From positions 1 through 64,000 of the forward strand of contig JBCCCR010000005.1 of the NCBI GenBank assembly GCA_039033415.1: a stretch of 64,000 nt of DNA, in the 5' to 3' direction. This DNA comes from Pseudomonadota bacterium. GTDB taxonomy: Bacteria; Pseudomonadota; Gammaproteobacteria; Xanthomonadales; SZUA-38. Under the pieces are notes generated by a model. The model did no database searches and was not told the DNA's origin. It saw nothing but the letters and a program-made list of their open reading frames with translations. This document shows, piece after piece, positions 5,860 through 12,501 of this stretch. The position numbers were made by a program, and so were the translations under genes. Position 1 is the stretch's first letter. Every line of letters starts with the position of its first letter.

Positions 5860-7164
5860 ATGGCCAAGTCCGCAAAATATCGCCGCAAACGGGGCATGCT
5901 AGGTTCTATCTTTTTCTGGCTGCGCAACGTTGTGCTGGTCGCGGTGGTCGCGGTGATCGGCGCGAAGTTTTACGCCGACTATCGGCTGAACCGGTCCCTG
6001 GAGCAGCTGGCCGGCATGGTCGCGCCGGTGGGCACACTGACCGTCGCCGACAACGCGGCCGGTTTTGACGGGACCCTGTCGGCTGACAACATTTCTTTTA
6101 TCCCGGACCCCGGCGTCGACCTGCCCCCGATCACTATGCGCCGGGCTGAGCTGCAAACGCCAGGCCTGCTCTGGGTGCTCGGAATCGGACGCAGCGAGCT
6201 GCCCAACAGCATGGGCCTCAACCTCGGCGGCATGCGCGTTGAGCTCGGAGACCTCCTCGGCCAGGAGCAGCGCTCTTCGATCAGCGGGCTCACCACAGAA
6301 ACCCTCGCGTGTGGCGACGTCACCCGTTTCGAGACGATCGATCTCAACAACATGGGCTTCGACAGCATGGAAAGCACCGTTGAAGCCCGTTACCGCCTGC
6401 TGCCGCCTGACGTCATCGACGTCCAGATGGTCATTCAGAACGCTAATGCGGCCGAGATTCATATGGAGCTGAAGCTGGCCGTGGAGAACCTTAACGAGGT
6501 ACGACGGAGCCAGGCGCCGCCGGAAGCCGGCCTCAAAAGCCTCGGCGTGACGCTGCAGGCCAGCGAGTTTAACCGTCGGCGCAACAGCTATTGCGCCGCG
6601 CAAAGCGACATTTCCAGCGACGAGTTTCTGGATAACCACATGGCAGCGGTCGCCGAGGAGACCGCCGGCATGGGTTTTGAGCTCAGCGATGAGCTGACGT
6701 ATCAGTACCGACGCTTCGCCGCCGGCGAGGGCGTCTGGACCTTTCTCAGCCGCCCCGACCGACCGCTCGCCATGGAGGAGATTGCTGCCCTCGGCCCGGA
6801 TAAGCTTTTGGAGGGGCTCAACGTTAATTCCGCCGTGGCTTCCGGAGTGCCGCAACGAGTCAGCATCATCTCGCTGGCGCCGGAGCCGGCAACGGTGCTG
6901 GCCGACAGCGGCGTCCCCGGCGCGGCTGCTGTCACTGGCGGCAGCGCAGCGCGGGCGTGGAAGCTGGTGGAGACGGGCAGCCTGGCGTCCTACACCGGCC
7001 GCAACGTGCGACTCAACTCGAAGTTCGGCAAGGAATACACCGGCGTGCTGGTCAGCGTCAGCGACGGCAAGGCGGTGATCGACACCCTACTCCCCGGCGG
7101 CTCTGCCCAGATACCGATTCCGCTCGACCAGATTTTCCGCGTACGCGTACTCACGCGCGGCTGA
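5860..7164 (+). CDS. Membrane-anchored protein with a small beta-barrel-like C-terminus
   Basis: Hypothetical 434-residue protein. A basic N-terminus (MAKSAKYRRKRG) is followed by one membrane helix at about residues 18-38, leaving a long periplasmic domain. The middle (GTLTVADNAAGFDGTLSADN) looks beta-rich, in the style of AsmA/DUF945-like periplasmic proteins. The last 65 residues (SYTGRNVRLNSKFGKEYTGV ... [12 protein letters not shown]) read like an Sm/KOW-type small barrel. The reading frame ends inside the converging comF gene (14-bp overlap of coding ends). Function not recognised. Confidence 0.7.
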   Translation: MAKSAKYRRKRGMLGSIFFWLRNVVLVAVVAVIGAKFYADYRLNRSLEQLAGMVAPVGTLTVADNAAGFDGTLSADNISFIPDPGVDLPPITMRRAELQTPGLLWVLGIGRSELPNSMGLNLGGMRVELGDLLGQEQRSSISGLTTETLACGDVTRFETIDLNNMGFDSMESTVEARYRLLPPDVIDVQMVIQNANAAEIHMELKLAVENLNEVRRSQAPPEAGLKSLGVTLQASEFNRRRNSYCAAQSDISSDEFLDNHMAAVAEETAGMGFELSDELTYQYRRFAAGEGVWTFLSRPDRPLAMEEIAALGPDKLLEGLNVNSAVASGVPQRVSIISLAPEPATVLADSGVPGAAAVTGGSAARAWKLVETGSLASYTGRNVRLNSKFGKEYTGVLVSVSDGKAVIDTLLPGGSAQIPIPLDQIFRVRVLTRG

Positions 7165-7870
7165 CCACCCAGACGCGAACCTCCGCCGCTCCGGCTTGCT
7201 TCAGCGCCCGCGCGCAGGCGGTCGCGGTGGCCCCGGTGGTCAGCACGTCATCAATCAAGGCGACCCTGGCACCGTCCAGCGGCCGTCGAACCTGAAACAC
7301 CCCCCGCATCGCGCGTCGACGGTCCGCGGCCAGCAGCGTTGACTGCGGCACGCCCGACCGACCGCGAAGCAAGAGGTTCTGCACCAGGGGCACACCCAAC
7401 CGTCTCGCCATCGGCCGGGCGAGCTCTGCAGATTGATTGAAGCCCCGCAGCGTAAGCCGCTCGCGGTGCAGCGGCACGGGCACGATCAGGTCCGGCACCG
7501 CGGGCCGGCAGCGAAGCAGAAATAACTCGCTCAGCAGCCGACCCAGGTGCAGCGTTCCGTCGTATTTGAAGCGCCGAACCCACCCGTCGACGGGCGGCGC
7601 AAAAGCGAATGCTGCGGTCACCTCGTCGAACCCGGGCGGTTCTCGGAGGCAGCGGCCACAGACTCCAGCGGCAGTTTTCTCAACCTCTCCGCCAGCGGTG
7701 ATCCCGGGCAGCGCGTCACCGCACAGGCGGCAGCCCGCGGCATGCCAGGGCAGATCACCCAAGCAATCGCGACACAGACTTAGGCCACGATAGCCCTGGG
7801 CGTGGCAGATGGCGCAGCGTGACGGGAAGATATGGCCCCAGCTTCGATCGATCCATTCGTAAACCTTCAT
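7151..7870 (-). CDS. comF: ComF family phosphoribosyltransferase-like protein
   Basis: Homologue of ComF, needed for DNA uptake in naturally competent bacteria and thought to act on incoming single-stranded DNA in the cytoplasm. The 239 residues show the family layout: N-terminal zinc-ribbon cysteine pairs (CAIC at about 19-22, CRDC 33-36, CRLC 47-50), then a phosphoribosyltransferase fold with [18 protein letters not shown] and the PRPP loop [17 protein letters not shown]. The frame is open far upstream into bioB, but the zinc ribbon begins just after the ATG at 7870, so that is the start. The first codons lie inside the BirA-like operator, so a bound repressor could also block comF. Confidence 0.9.
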
Positions 7871-7889
7871 GTCACTCTCTGGTTGACAG
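7857..7889. promoter_or_regulatory. Putative BirA operator between comF and bioB
   Basis: TCGTAAACC (7857-7865), a 15-nt spacer, then GGTTGACAG (7881-7889). The known BirA site in proteobacteria is TTGTAAACC, 14-16 nt, GGTTTACAA. The left half matches at 8 of 9 positions and the right at 7 of 9, with correct spacing. It sits exactly where bio operators sit, between the divergent gene and bioB, and the right half contains the bioB -35 element. BirA is not encoded in this window, so the assignment rests on the motif and its context. Confidence 0.72.
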
Positions 7890-7911
7890 GCGTAGAAACC
7901 GGTCCAATACT
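7883..7911 (+). promoter_or_regulatory. Predicted sigma-70 promoter of bioBFHCD
   Basis: TTGACA at 7883-7888, a 17-nt spacer, and AATACT at 7906-7911. The -35 is a perfect consensus, the -10 only fair. Transcription would begin near 7918, leaving a short leader with GGAG about 5 nt before the bioB ATG. The overlap with the right BirA half-site implies direct repression when biotin is plentiful. Confidence 0.6.
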
Positions 7912-7939: not shown

Positions 7940-8908
7940 ATGACCTCTGTGCGACACGACTGGACCGCCGAACAGGCGGTTGCGCTGTTTAATCAGCCAT
8001 TCAACGACCTGTTGTTTGACGCGCAAACGGTTCACCGAAACACTTTTCCGCCCAACACGGTGCAGATCAGCACGCTGCTGTCGATCAAAACCGGCGCCTG
8101 CCCGGAAGACTGCAAATACTGCCCGCAGAGCGCTCACTACAAGACGGGGCTCGAGGTCGAGCGGCTGCTGCCCGTCGAGCAGGTTGTCGCTGCCGCCAGC
8201 GCCGCAAAAGCACGCGGCGCCAGCCGCTTCTGTATGGGCGGCGCGTGGCGAAGCCCGAGGGCGCGGGATCTCGAGCCGCTGGCAGAAATGATCGCTGAGG
8301 TGAAGGCCCTGGGCCTGGAAACCTGCCTGACCGTCGGCATGCTCGACTCCGAACAGGCCGACCGACTGCAGGAAGCGGGCCTCGATTATTACAACCACAA
8401 CATCGACACCTCGCCCGAGTACTACGACGAGGTGATCACCACCCGGGACTTTTCCGAGCGCATCGAGACGCTGAACAACGTGCGCAAGGCGGGCCTCAAG
8501 GTCTGCTCGGGCGGCATTGTCGGCATGGGAGAAAGCCGGGCCGACCGTGCCAGCATGCTGGCGGTGCTGGCCAACCTGCCCGAACACCCGGAGAGTGTGC
8601 CGATCAACCGCCTGGTGCAGGTCCCCGGTACGCCGATGCACGGGCAGCCGGAAGTGGATCCGCTCGAGTTTGTCCGGACCATCGCGGTCGCCAGGATTAT
8701 GCTGCCGCGGTCGGTGGTGCGGCTGTCAGCCGGGCGCACGGAGATGTCGGACGAGCTGCAGGCGTTATGTTTTCTGGCCGGCGCTAACTCGATCTTTTAC
8801 GGCGACAAGCTGCTCACCACACAAAATCCGGCCCAGCAGGACGACATGGAGCTGCTGGCGAGGCTGGGGCTGACCGCCGGGACGCCGGAACCCGTCCCAG
8901 CGGGCTAA
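7940..8908 (+). CDS. bioB: Biotin synthase BioB
   Basis: Radical-SAM enzyme that inserts sulfur into dethiobiotin to give biotin, the last step of the pathway, in the cytoplasm. The 322 residues carry the [4Fe-4S] motif CPEDCKYC with cysteines at 54, 58 and 61, then [13 protein letters not shown] and the GGIVGMGE motif, all in family positions. ATG 7940 has GGAG just upstream and gives the normal length. An upstream extension of the frame to 7832 would run through the operator and into comF. First gene of the bio operon; bioF follows after 9 nt. Confidence 0.97.
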
Positions 8909-8917
8909 CGCCACGCC

Positions 8918-10171
8918 ATGCCTCGTTCGGGACCGGTTTCGCCTGCGCCTGGCCCACACTCTGCAACGGTCGCACCAGGACATGAGGCGCCGGCCAGCAG
9001 TGCACTGCCCAACGACTGGGCGTCCTGGCTGAGCGCGCAGCGCGCGACGCTCGAGCACGCCAACCAGTGGCGCCAGCGGCGGATCCCCGCCGATGACGCC
9101 AAAGATTTTGCCAGCAACGACTACCTGGCGCTGGCGAAACACCCGGCGCTGGCCAAGGCGCTGGCGGCGGCGGCCGAGGACCTGGGCTGTGGCGCCGGCA
9201 GCGCGCAGCTGCTGGGCGGCTACCGCCCGATACATCAGGAGCTGGAGGAATGCCTCGCTGAGTGGGTTCAGCGACCGGCCGCAGCGCTGTTTTCCACCGG
9301 CTACATGGCTAACCTCGGACTGATTACCGCGCTCACCGGCGCCGAAGACCTGATTGTCCAGGACAAACTGAACCACGCCTCACTCATCGACGCCGCCCGT
9401 TTGTCAGGCGCCAGGCTGCGACGCTTCCAGCATAACGACATGAGCAGCCTGCACCGGCAGCTGACGTTGCCCGGGCGACGGCGCCTGCTGGCGGTTGAAA
9501 GCGTGTTCTCGATGGATGGCGACCTGGCGCCGCTGGCGGAGATCGCCAGGCTGGCGACAGCCCATGATGCGCTGCTCTGCGTTGACGAAGCCCACGCGCT
9601 GGGGGTTTTGGGTCAGCACGGCTCCGGCTCGCTGGGCGAAGCGGGGCTCGGTGCCGCTGATGCTCCCGTGGTGGTCGGCACCTTCGGCAAATCGCTGGGC
9701 ACGCACGGCGCGTTTGTCGCCGGTCCGCAGGAGATCATCGACCAGCTCGTCAACCGAGCACGGAGCCACGTTTACACCACCGCACCCGCGCCGCCGCTGG
9801 CCGCCGCCACCCTCGCTGGCCTTCAGCTCGTGCAGCGTGACCAGTGGCGGCGGGATCATCTGCAGGACTTGATCGAGCGGTTTGTGCGGCGGGCCGGCGA
9901 GCTGGGATTGCCGCTGGGTGCTTCGCGATCGCCGATTCAGCCGCTGCTGCTGGGGGAGGCGGGTTGTGCGCTGGACCTCAGCCAGTCCCTGGCCACGCAG
10001 GGTTTTCACGTTCCTGCCATCCGACCCCCGACCGTGCCTGAGGGCACCTCGCGACTACGCATTTCCCTCAACGCCGGTCATCAGCCCGACGATATCGAGC
10101 GGCTTTTGGTGGCGATCTCCCGGCACCTTGAACAGCCCGCACAGGCGGCGGGCTCAGAGACGCGTCCATGA
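8918..10171 (+). CDS. bioF: 8-amino-7-oxononanoate synthase BioF
   Basis: PLP enzyme that condenses pimeloyl-ACP with alanine to form 8-amino-7-oxononanoate. At 417 residues it is longer than most BioF proteins because of a Pro/Ala-rich N-terminal 30 residues; a later start is possible, but the ATG at 8918 is the natural one. Family motifs: SNDYLALAKHP, GAGSAQLLGGYRPIHQELE, VDEAHALGVLG, and the PLP lysine in GTFGKSLGTHGAF (about residue 258). It follows bioB by 9 nt, and its end overlaps bioH by 4 nt, indicating coupled translation. Confidence 0.96.
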   Translation: MPRSGPVSPAPGPHSATVAPGHEAPASSALPNDWASWLSAQRATLEHANQWRQRRIPADDAKDFASNDYLALAKHPALAKALAAAAEDLGCGAGSAQLLGGYRPIHQELEECLAEWVQRPAAALFSTGYMANLGLITALTGAEDLIVQDKLNHASLIDAARLSGARLRRFQHNDMSSLHRQLTLPGRRRLLAVESVFSMDGDLAPLAEIARLATAHDALLCVDEAHALGVLGQHGSGSLGEAGLGAADAPVVVGTFGKSLGTHGAFVAGPQEIIDQLVNRARSHVYTTAPAPPLAAATLAGLQLVQRDQWRRDHLQDLIERFVRRAGELGLPLGASRSPIQPLLLGEAGCALDLSQSLATQGFHVPAIRPPTVPEGTSRLRISLNAGHQPDDIERLLVAISRHLEQPAQAAGSETRP

Positions 10172-10998
10172 CCGAACCGACGGCACTAAGTATCGAGGTC
10201 GCCGGATGTCGAGAACCGGGCACACCGACGCTGGCACTGATCCACGGCTGGGGTATGCACTGCAACGTTTTCGCTGAAGCCATCGAGACGCTTGCCCCGC
10301 GGTTCCGGCTGCTGTTGATCGACCTGCCTGGCCACGGTCGCAACCATCAGCTTTCCCGCATACCGCCGCTGGCTGAGCTCGCTGATCAGGTCGCAGGCGC
10401 GGTGGCAACAATCGTCGACGAGCAACCGATCACCTGCCTTGGCTGGTCGCTGGGCGGGCAGCTGGCGTTGTCCCTGGCGCTGCAACATCCACAGCACATC
10501 AGACGGCTCGTGCTGGTTGCCAGCACGCCGCGTTTTGTGCGCGACGCGACCTGGCCTCACGGCATGCCCGCCGCCGTGTTCGACCAATTCGCCGCGGACC
10601 TCCGCGAAGATCATGTCGCCACCTGGCAGCGCTTTCTGGCGCTGGAGGTCCACGGCACCGCCACCGCCAAGCAGGATCTTCGTCGGCTGCGGCAGGTTGC
10701 GACCGCCTGGCCCCCGCCGAACCCGACAGCGTTGGCTGACGGACTTCGGATTCTGGGGAACAACGACCTGCGGGACCACCTGCGCCAGATCCCCACGCCG
10801 ACGCTGATCGTGAGCGGCGGCCGAGATCGGCTGGTGCCACCCGCAGCCGGGCGGTGGATGGCCAGCCAGCTGCGCCGAGCGGACCATCAGGTGCTGTCCG
10901 CGTGCGGCCACGCGCCCTTTATCGGCGACAGCGCCGCCTTTCTCAAGCTGTTGGAGCCGTTTGCGCTGGCTGACCACGCGAGGCCGGCCCATGTATGA
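10168..10998 (+). CDS. bioH: Pimeloyl-ACP methyl ester carboxylesterase BioH
   Basis: Alpha/beta hydrolase that removes the methyl group from pimeloyl-ACP methyl ester, ending the elongation phase begun by BioC. The nucleophile elbow is GWSLGG (Ser about residue 94), the acid lies in SGGRDRLVPP and the histidine in CGHAPF near residue 250, so the triad is complete. Length 276, close to the 256 of E. coli BioH. ATG overlaps the bioF stop by 4 nt, and the tail overlaps the bioC start by 8 nt. Its place between bioF and bioC supports BioH over a generic hydrolase. Confidence 0.93.
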   Translation: MTEPTALSIEVAGCREPGTPTLALIHGWGMHCNVFAEAIETLAPRFRLLLIDLPGHGRNHQLSRIPPLAELADQVAGAVATIVDEQPITCLGWSLGGQLALSLALQHPQHIRRLVLVASTPRFVRDATWPHGMPAAVFDQFAADLREDHVATWQRFLALEVHGTATAKQDLRRLRQVATAWPPPNPTALADGLRILGNNDLRDHLRQIPTPTLIVSGGRDRLVPPAAGRWMASQLRRADHQVLSACGHAPFIGDSAAFLKLLEPFALADHARPAHV

Positions 10999-11842
10999 CA
11001 CGACCAGCGTCGGACGCGCGTTCAGCCGGGCGGCCGACAGCTACGGCGACGCTTCGGTGCTGCAGCAAGCTGTTGAGGACGAACTGCTGACGCGGCTCAC
11101 AACGCTGAATCCGTCAGCCGACACGATCGTGGATCTCGGCGCCGGCCCCGGGCGGGCCAGCCGATCCCTCGCCGGCAGGCCGGGCAACCCTCAGGTGGTG
11201 GCCGTGGATTTAGCCTCGGGGATGCTGGAAGGCTGGTCACATCCCGGCGTCCAGCGGATTTGTGCCGACGCGGCCTGGCTGCCGCTGGCTGACGGCTGCG
11301 CTGACCTCGTCTGGTCCAATCTGATGCTGCAATGGAGCCCCGATCCCGGGCGGCTTTTCGCTGAGGTTCGGCGGAGCCTCAGACCTGAGGGTTGCTTTCT
11401 CTTCAGCACGTTCGGCCCGCTGACGCTGACCGAGCTGCGCAGCGCCTGGGCCGCCGTCGATGCCGGGAGCCACGTGAGCGACTTTATTGACATGCACGAT
11501 CTCGGTGACGGCCTGCTGGCGGCCGGCTTCTCCGATCCGGTCATGGACAGCCAGCTCATCACGCTAACCTACGGCGATGTCCGGGCGCTGATGATGGATC
11601 TAAAAGCGTGGGGCGCCAGCAACCGGCGCCAGGATCGCCCGCGCGGCATGATGGGAAAGCGCCGAATGAAGGCGATGATGGCGGAATACGAACGGCATCG
11701 CGCCGACGACCGTATTCCCGCCACCTTTGAGGTGATCTATGGCTTTGCGCGCGGAGCACCGACCGGGCGCCCCGTCCGCCAGGAAGCAGGTGAGGTAGCC
11801 ACCTTTCCCGTCGATTCCCTGCGGGGCAGCCGCCGCCAGTGA
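10991..11842 (+). CDS. bioC: Malonyl-ACP O-methyltransferase BioC
   Basis: SAM-dependent methyltransferase that masks the free carboxyl of malonyl-ACP so that fatty acid synthesis can build pimelate. The N-terminal FSRAADSYGDASVLQ is the BioC signature. SAM motif I is VDLGAGPGRAS (about residues 47-57), followed by ADAAWLPLADGCADLVWSN and MLQWSPDP. The ATG at 10991 matches this conserved beginning. The gene overlaps bioH by 8 nt at its start and bioD by 4 nt at its end. Confidence 0.95.
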   Translation: MYDTTSVGRAFSRAADSYGDASVLQQAVEDELLTRLTTLNPSADTIVDLGAGPGRASRSLAGRPGNPQVVAVDLASGMLEGWSHPGVQRICADAAWLPLADGCADLVWSNLMLQWSPDPGRLFAEVRRSLRPEGCFLFSTFGPLTLTELRSAWAAVDAGSHVSDFIDMHDLGDGLLAAGFSDPVMDSQLITLTYGDVRALMMDLKAWGASNRRQDRPRGMMGKRRMKAMMAEYERHRADDRIPATFEVIYGFARGAPTGRPVRQEAGEVATFPVDSLRGSRRQ

Positions 11843-12501
11843 AAGGTTTTTTTGTCACCGGAACCGATACCGAGATCGGCAAGACCTGGTCGAGCGTGGC
11901 GGTGCTTCACAAGCTGCGAGAACGCGGCTTCCGCGTCAACGCCATCAAGCCGGTCGCCGCCGGCGAGGACCACCCGAGCGACGCCTCTCTGCTGGAAAGC
12001 GCCTGCGGCCATCCGATTGACCCAGCGCTGCTCAACCCGTTTGCCTTTCGGGAACCCGTCTCACCGCACCTGGCGGCGCAGCTAGAAGGTCAACACGTTG
12101 AGCTTCCGCCGATTGTGACGGCCGCCCGCCGGCTCGCGGACGATGCGGACCTGCTGCTCGCAGAAGGCGCCGGAGGCTGGATGGTGCCGCTCGGCGGTCC
12201 GGACGGTCAGCTGCTGATGCCCGACCTCGTGAAGGCGCTCGACCTCCCGGTCATCCTGGTGGTTGGGCTCAAGCTGGGCTGTCTCAACCACGCGTTGCTC
12301 AGCGCGGCTCAAATCACCGCCAGCGGCTGCACCTTGGCCGGCTGGATTGGCAATACGGTGGATCCGGCGATGCGCCTCAAGCGCGAAAACATCGACACGT
12401 TGACCCGCCTGCTGCCGGCTCCGTCTCTTGGCATTCTGCCGAGGCTAAAGGCACCGGCTGACGGTGCGTCTTATCTCGACCTCTCGCCACTCAAACTCTG
12501 A
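11839..12501 (+). CDS. bioD: Dethiobiotin synthetase BioD
   Basis: ATP-dependent ring closure of 7,8-diaminononanoate with CO2 to dethiobiotin. The P-loop GTDTEIGKT is at residues 8-16, followed by the second family block IKPVAAG and the AEGAGGWMVPL segment. Length 220 is typical. The GTG start overlaps the bioC stop by 4 nt. It is the last gene of the operon. The aminotransferase step (bioA) has no gene in this window and must be encoded elsewhere. Confidence 0.95.
   Translation: MKGFFVTGTDTEIGKTWSSVAVLHKLRERGFRVNAIKPVAAGEDHPSDASLLESACGHPIDPALLNPFAFREPVSPHLAAQLEGQHVELPPIVTAARRLADDADLLLAEGAGGWMVPLGGPDGQLLMPDLVKALDLPVILVVGLKLGCLNHALLSAAQITASGCTLAGWIGNTVDPAMRLKRENIDTLTRLLPAPSLGILPRLKAPADGASYLDLSPLKL

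Follow-up and report, generated by a model that had tools for sequence, protein, structure and literature searches.

The founding paper on predicted BirA regulons in the Gamma- and Deltaproteobacteria is said to be that of Rodionov et al. 2002. In such regulons the predicted operator, TTGTAAACC-N14/15-GGTTTACAA, lies upstream of bioB and often carries GTTGAC in one half, and lineages whose BirA has lost the DNA-binding domain lack the regulon, according to the available portions of two studies (PMC545781; PMC5343134). The consensus, the location before bioB, the GTTGAC half and the loss of the regulon together with the helix-turn-helix (HTH) all recur in the case described here. The E. coli bioA/bioBFCD operator and its BirA likewise share with this locus the same palindrome, an HTH regulator and a single operator between divergent genes. 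However, the divergent partner in E. coli is bioA, a biotin gene, whereas here it is comF; unlike in E. coli, one half-site lies inside the comF coding sequence, and bioA lies elsewhere without an operator. In Pseudomonas aeruginosa, bioH lies inside the biotin operon, as it does here, and the BioH protein is repressed by excess biotin; in the portion of that source available, no operator mapping for the operon was found (PMC5438404).

The operator described below is a real, ordinary BirA operator of a known kind. By itself it enlarges a well-known regulon by a single case, and the comparison across genomes is more informative. Its overlap with a neighbouring coding sequence is a modest new observation. 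The word comF does not occur in PMC5343134, and no description of an overlap with the comF coding sequence was found in the available portions of PMC545781 and PMC5343134. Nor was a published report of a recurring coding overlap between comF and the operator found within a limited literature, available in part.

The operator and the bioB promoter

The window (the whole stretch of DNA analysed, 64,000 nucleotides) was scanned with the proteobacterial BirA consensus as quoted in PMC545781, TTGTAAACC-N15-GGTTTACAA, which has 18 scored positions. The only site with three or fewer mismatches is TCGTAAACC-N15-GGTTGACAG (Table 1), and 100 dinucleotide shuffles of the window yielded none. A PWM trained on 42 operators, all from other species, gives this site a score of 25.1, and the runner-up in the window scores 10.8. 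The initial annotation, which had described a BirA-type operator with 15 of 18 matches and correct spacing, is borne out on both counts.

Table 1. Coordinates of the operator, the predicted promoter and the genes around them in the window.
Feature	Position	Strand	Remarks
BirA operator	7857..7889	none	TCGTAAACC-N15-GGTTGACAG; 15/18 to consensus, unique in window
Left half-site	7857..7865	none	TCGTAAACC; its minus-strand reading falls in comF codons 2-5 (K-V-Y-E)
Right half-site	7881..7889	none	GGTTGACAG; holds the bioB -35
bioB promoter, predicted	7883..7911	+	TTGACA, 17 nt, AATACT; 10/12 sigma-70 match
comF/gntX family protein	7154..7870	-	NF008616 E 3e-42, TIGR00201 E 4e-29, both below curated cut-offs
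bioB, biotin synthase	7940..8908	+	TIGR00433 413.6 bits
bioF	8918..10171	+	TIGR00858 424.3 bits, cut-off 426.45
bioH, operon-encoded	10168..10998	+	TIGR01738 234.3 bits
bioC	10991..11842	+	TIGR02072 193.1 bits
bioD	11839..12501	+	TIGR00347 154.6 bits

Across the whole 6.4-Mb genome, with spacers of 14-16 pooled, there are five three-mismatch sites, namely 7857-7889 and four elsewhere, and a reversed control pattern gives four, a chance rate of about 6e-7 per base. Because the control yields as many, the four further sites are taken as chance occurrences and rejected as BirA targets; for the same reason, a 15/18 match would be unconvincing by itself at a random place. The three mismatches and the four equally good sites might suggest that 7857-7889 too is a chance match to the consensus. 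Yet simple arithmetic from the genome-wide rate puts the probability of such a match within the approximately 100 bp before bioB at about 6e-5, the site is conserved in the congener (both half-sites unchanged except for one base) and in the family, and it co-occurs perfectly with the BirA HTH, as described below. A chance match has a negligible probability.

The genes comF and bioB, starting at ATG 7870 and ATG 7940 respectively, are divergent and separated by a 69-bp gap, with bioF, bioH, bioC and bioD following bioB. The -35 hexamer of the predicted bioB promoter (7883-7888) falls inside the right half-site, just as had been proposed from the first reading of the sequence, and the -10 hexamer is at 7906-7911. 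This was the one promoter-like site found near the operator (0.2 expected in shuffles), and both hexamers are identical in the congener. On the other side, the predicted comF start reads ATG AAG GTT TAC GAA across the left half-site. The initial annotation had placed the left half and the spacer over the first codons of comF; this holds for the left half and for spacer bases 1-5, but the remaining 10 bases belong to the comF leader. The comF product has the Pfam domains DZR_2 and Pribosyltran (a double zinc ribbon and a phosphoribosyltransferase domain).

The regulator and its pairing with the operator

The birA gene of this genome is located on contig 35, and its product has the N-terminal HTH that the initial annotation had suggested looking for. 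The domain scores 72.9 bits with TIGR00122 (cut-off 70), Pfam recognizes HTH_11, the BPL ligase domain and BPL_C (the HTH, catalytic and C-terminal domains, respectively), and the alignment to E. coli BirA (1bia) runs from residue 9 to 324 and covers the HTH. The protein is thus of the group II type, with an N-terminal winged HTH. In the congener, birA is split over two contigs (L160 and L198; residues 2-221 and 189-328), probably by an assembly break.

The site recurs before bioB throughout the Gammaproteobacteria. Among 110 bioB loci, an operator, called at PWM >= 14, precedes bioB in 77. It is found in 45 of the 55 loci with a divergent comF, so that relatives with the gene order of this locus share it, a comparison that the initial annotation had proposed, and in 32 of the 55 without one. 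The usual right half across these loci is GGTTGAC, in which GTTGAC corresponds to the -35. A contig labelled as a Rickettsia typhi MAG (L037) carries a bioB 64% identical to the gammaproteobacterial bioB of the host; the label is probably wrong.

The pairing with the HTH was assessed in 29 genomes of the host's order, the host's own among them, in which bioB is present and BirA could be scored. All 17 genomes whose BirA has the HTH carry the operator (scores 14-30), versus none of the 12 without it, which score -11 to 8.5. The Fisher p of 2e-8 is uncorrected for phylogeny and overstates independence, because related genomes are counted as independent. Families f4 and f9 each contain both states, and HTH-less genomes turn up in seven families; several of the losses are therefore probably independent. 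Within a single order, the BirA HTH and the operator are thus exactly paired, and losses recur. In HTH-less genomes the half bearing the -35 is often retained (L091, L096, L100, L102 and L103), whereas the half on the comF side has degenerated, as expected if BirA alone maintained that half.

Two genomes of the comparison, G003 and G019, have lost bioB, and the operator site is lost in both. Apparent remnants of the biotin operon face comF in each, a bioC-like gene in G003 (L118) and a bioH-like gene in G019 (L125), identified from their translated products; the genes between comF and these remnants were apparently deleted. The BirA of G019 is missing the HTH. In G003 the N-terminal domain can be aligned at 66 bits, with a model whose seed included the G003 sequence itself, and by eye it is without the conserved SRAA-V/I-WK helix.

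The proposal of the initial annotation that biotin status would control bioBFHCD is well supported by sequence, as the HTH is present, and the site is conserved and is absent exactly where the HTH is absent. The site at 7857-7889 is very probably the operator through which BirA controls bioBFHCD, with its right half on the bioB -35 and the overlap with comF as a by-product. Binding, the co-repressor and repression at this site are modelled on E. coli BirA. When biotin is plentiful, BirA would be loaded with biotinyl-5'-AMP and dimerise, and the two winged HTH domains of the dimer would bind the two half-sites. Bound BirA would cover the bioB -35 and the operon would be repressed; when biotin is scarce, BirA would act as a ligase and the operon would be expressed. 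The right half would serve as both operator and -35, and the left half, which lies in the first codons of the divergent comF, would also be read as Val-Tyr (with Asn or Asp as the second residue in relatives).

The unlinked bioA (G000:C12:131686-132918, L199) was considered as a second BirA target and rejected. No operator lies within 1.5 kb of bioA in the genus, and scans of whole loci in HTH-bearing relatives gave none that was convincing (best PWM 7.0). This gene therefore seems to escape the repressor in the genus and its relatives.

Operator bases read as ComF residues

Of the 45 operators adjacent to comF, 42 have a left half through which the comF frame runs open. In 38 of these 42 the left half is read in a single comF phase, giving Val and then Tyr, Asn or Asp; Ala-Tyr occurs once. 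The three alternatives at the second residue are those that the variable operator base 5 allows. A start codon in frame precedes the half-site in about 40 cases and is ATG in some 30; all of these starts are predicted. Pseudomonas relatives depart from the present arrangement in that the whole operator lies inside the predicted comF frame (MxCQP...VYNWL). The shared phase partly reflects common descent.

Of the comF-adjacent genomes of the order, all 13 with the HTH have both the operator and the motif, and none of the 8 without it has the operator. The half-site degrades where BirA has lost the HTH, and the beginning of ComF therefore seems to be set by the operator. Counting V[YND] at any place in the N-terminal part of ComF is uninformative, with four of the eight HTH-less genomes still scoring; only the position of the left half is informative, because all four of these cases seem to derive from the right half, on the -35 strand that has been retained.

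The dependence could also run the other way, with ComF requiring an N-terminal Val-Tyr and the likeness to a BirA operator being secondary. This would fit G003, a genome of the same family that has lost bioB and still encodes ARVYGWLDRLW in ComF without an operator. Nevertheless, the second residue varies among Tyr, Asn and Asp, which are chemically unlike and yet all compatible with the operator, 43 comF genes located elsewhere have no operator, and a ComF requirement does not sit easily with the 13/13 and 0/8 counts given above. A half-site owed to a need of ComF for these residues is thus very improbable.

On balance, the reading that we favour, with some reservation, is that the operator of the bioB operon dictated N-terminal residues (Val-Tyr/Asn/Asp) of the unrelated ComF across much of the Gammaproteobacteria, that ComF was released when the repressor lost its DNA-binding domain, and that comF may in addition be passively repressed by biotin. 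The locus would then show cleanly, in nature, how a regulatory site can fix residues of the protein encoded beside it, and would warn against taking these conserved ComF residues as functional.

comF as a possible BirA target

The initial annotation had extended biotin control to comF as a possibility, and as evolved regulation this extension is not supported. None of the 43 comF genes that do not adjoin bioB has an operator. In two genomes that keep the BirA HTH and have no bioB over the cut-off, G011 (L163) and G029 (L171), the comF region scores at background. By contrast, bioB retains the operator where comF lies elsewhere. Where the operator sits relative to the comF start varies, the extremes being outside the gene and 38 nt or more within it; the right half stays on the bioB -35. 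Since the site tracks bioB, never accompanies comF away from bioB and varies in its distance to the comF start, comF is unsupported as a selected BirA target.

An operator selected to co-regulate comF with biotin would make comF a genuine BirA regulon gene, like bioA in the divergent E. coli arrangement. It would account for an operator that spans the comF start and leader, any comF promoter within the 69-bp gap would overlap or adjoin the operator, and the gene pair and the overlap recur in many families. Against it stand the observations on comF away from bioB, in G011 and G029 and on the variable distance, and on the minus strand of the gap no comF promoter better than 7/12 was found. Selected control of comF is, accordingly, improbable. 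Comparison across genomes instead suggests that the overlap is a by-product, one that restricts the N-terminus of ComF, with no selected regulation of comF.

Passive repression of comF, in which BirA on the operator would cover the start or block the polymerase without having been selected to do so, is compatible with an operator serving bioBFHCD, and we give it slightly less than an even chance. The operator physically overlaps the comF start codon, the leader and the probable promoter region, and the E. coli operator offers a precedent for one site repressing two divergent transcripts, according to the available portion of the source (PMC5438404). On the other hand, the comF transcript may begin well upstream. 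The overlap of the operator with comF provides a ready test of such passive repression.

An alternative BirA target was sought in the two genomes with the HTH and no bioB over the cut-off. There are two three-mismatch sites in G011 (C9:13516 and C43:100026) and none in G029, and these candidates are unconvincing.

On its other side, comF is convergent with a gene for a 434-aa protein (window 5860-7164, plus strand) that has no NCBIfam match. A similar protein adjoins comF in G003 (L118 2234-3595), and this neighbour of comF therefore seems to be conserved in the family.
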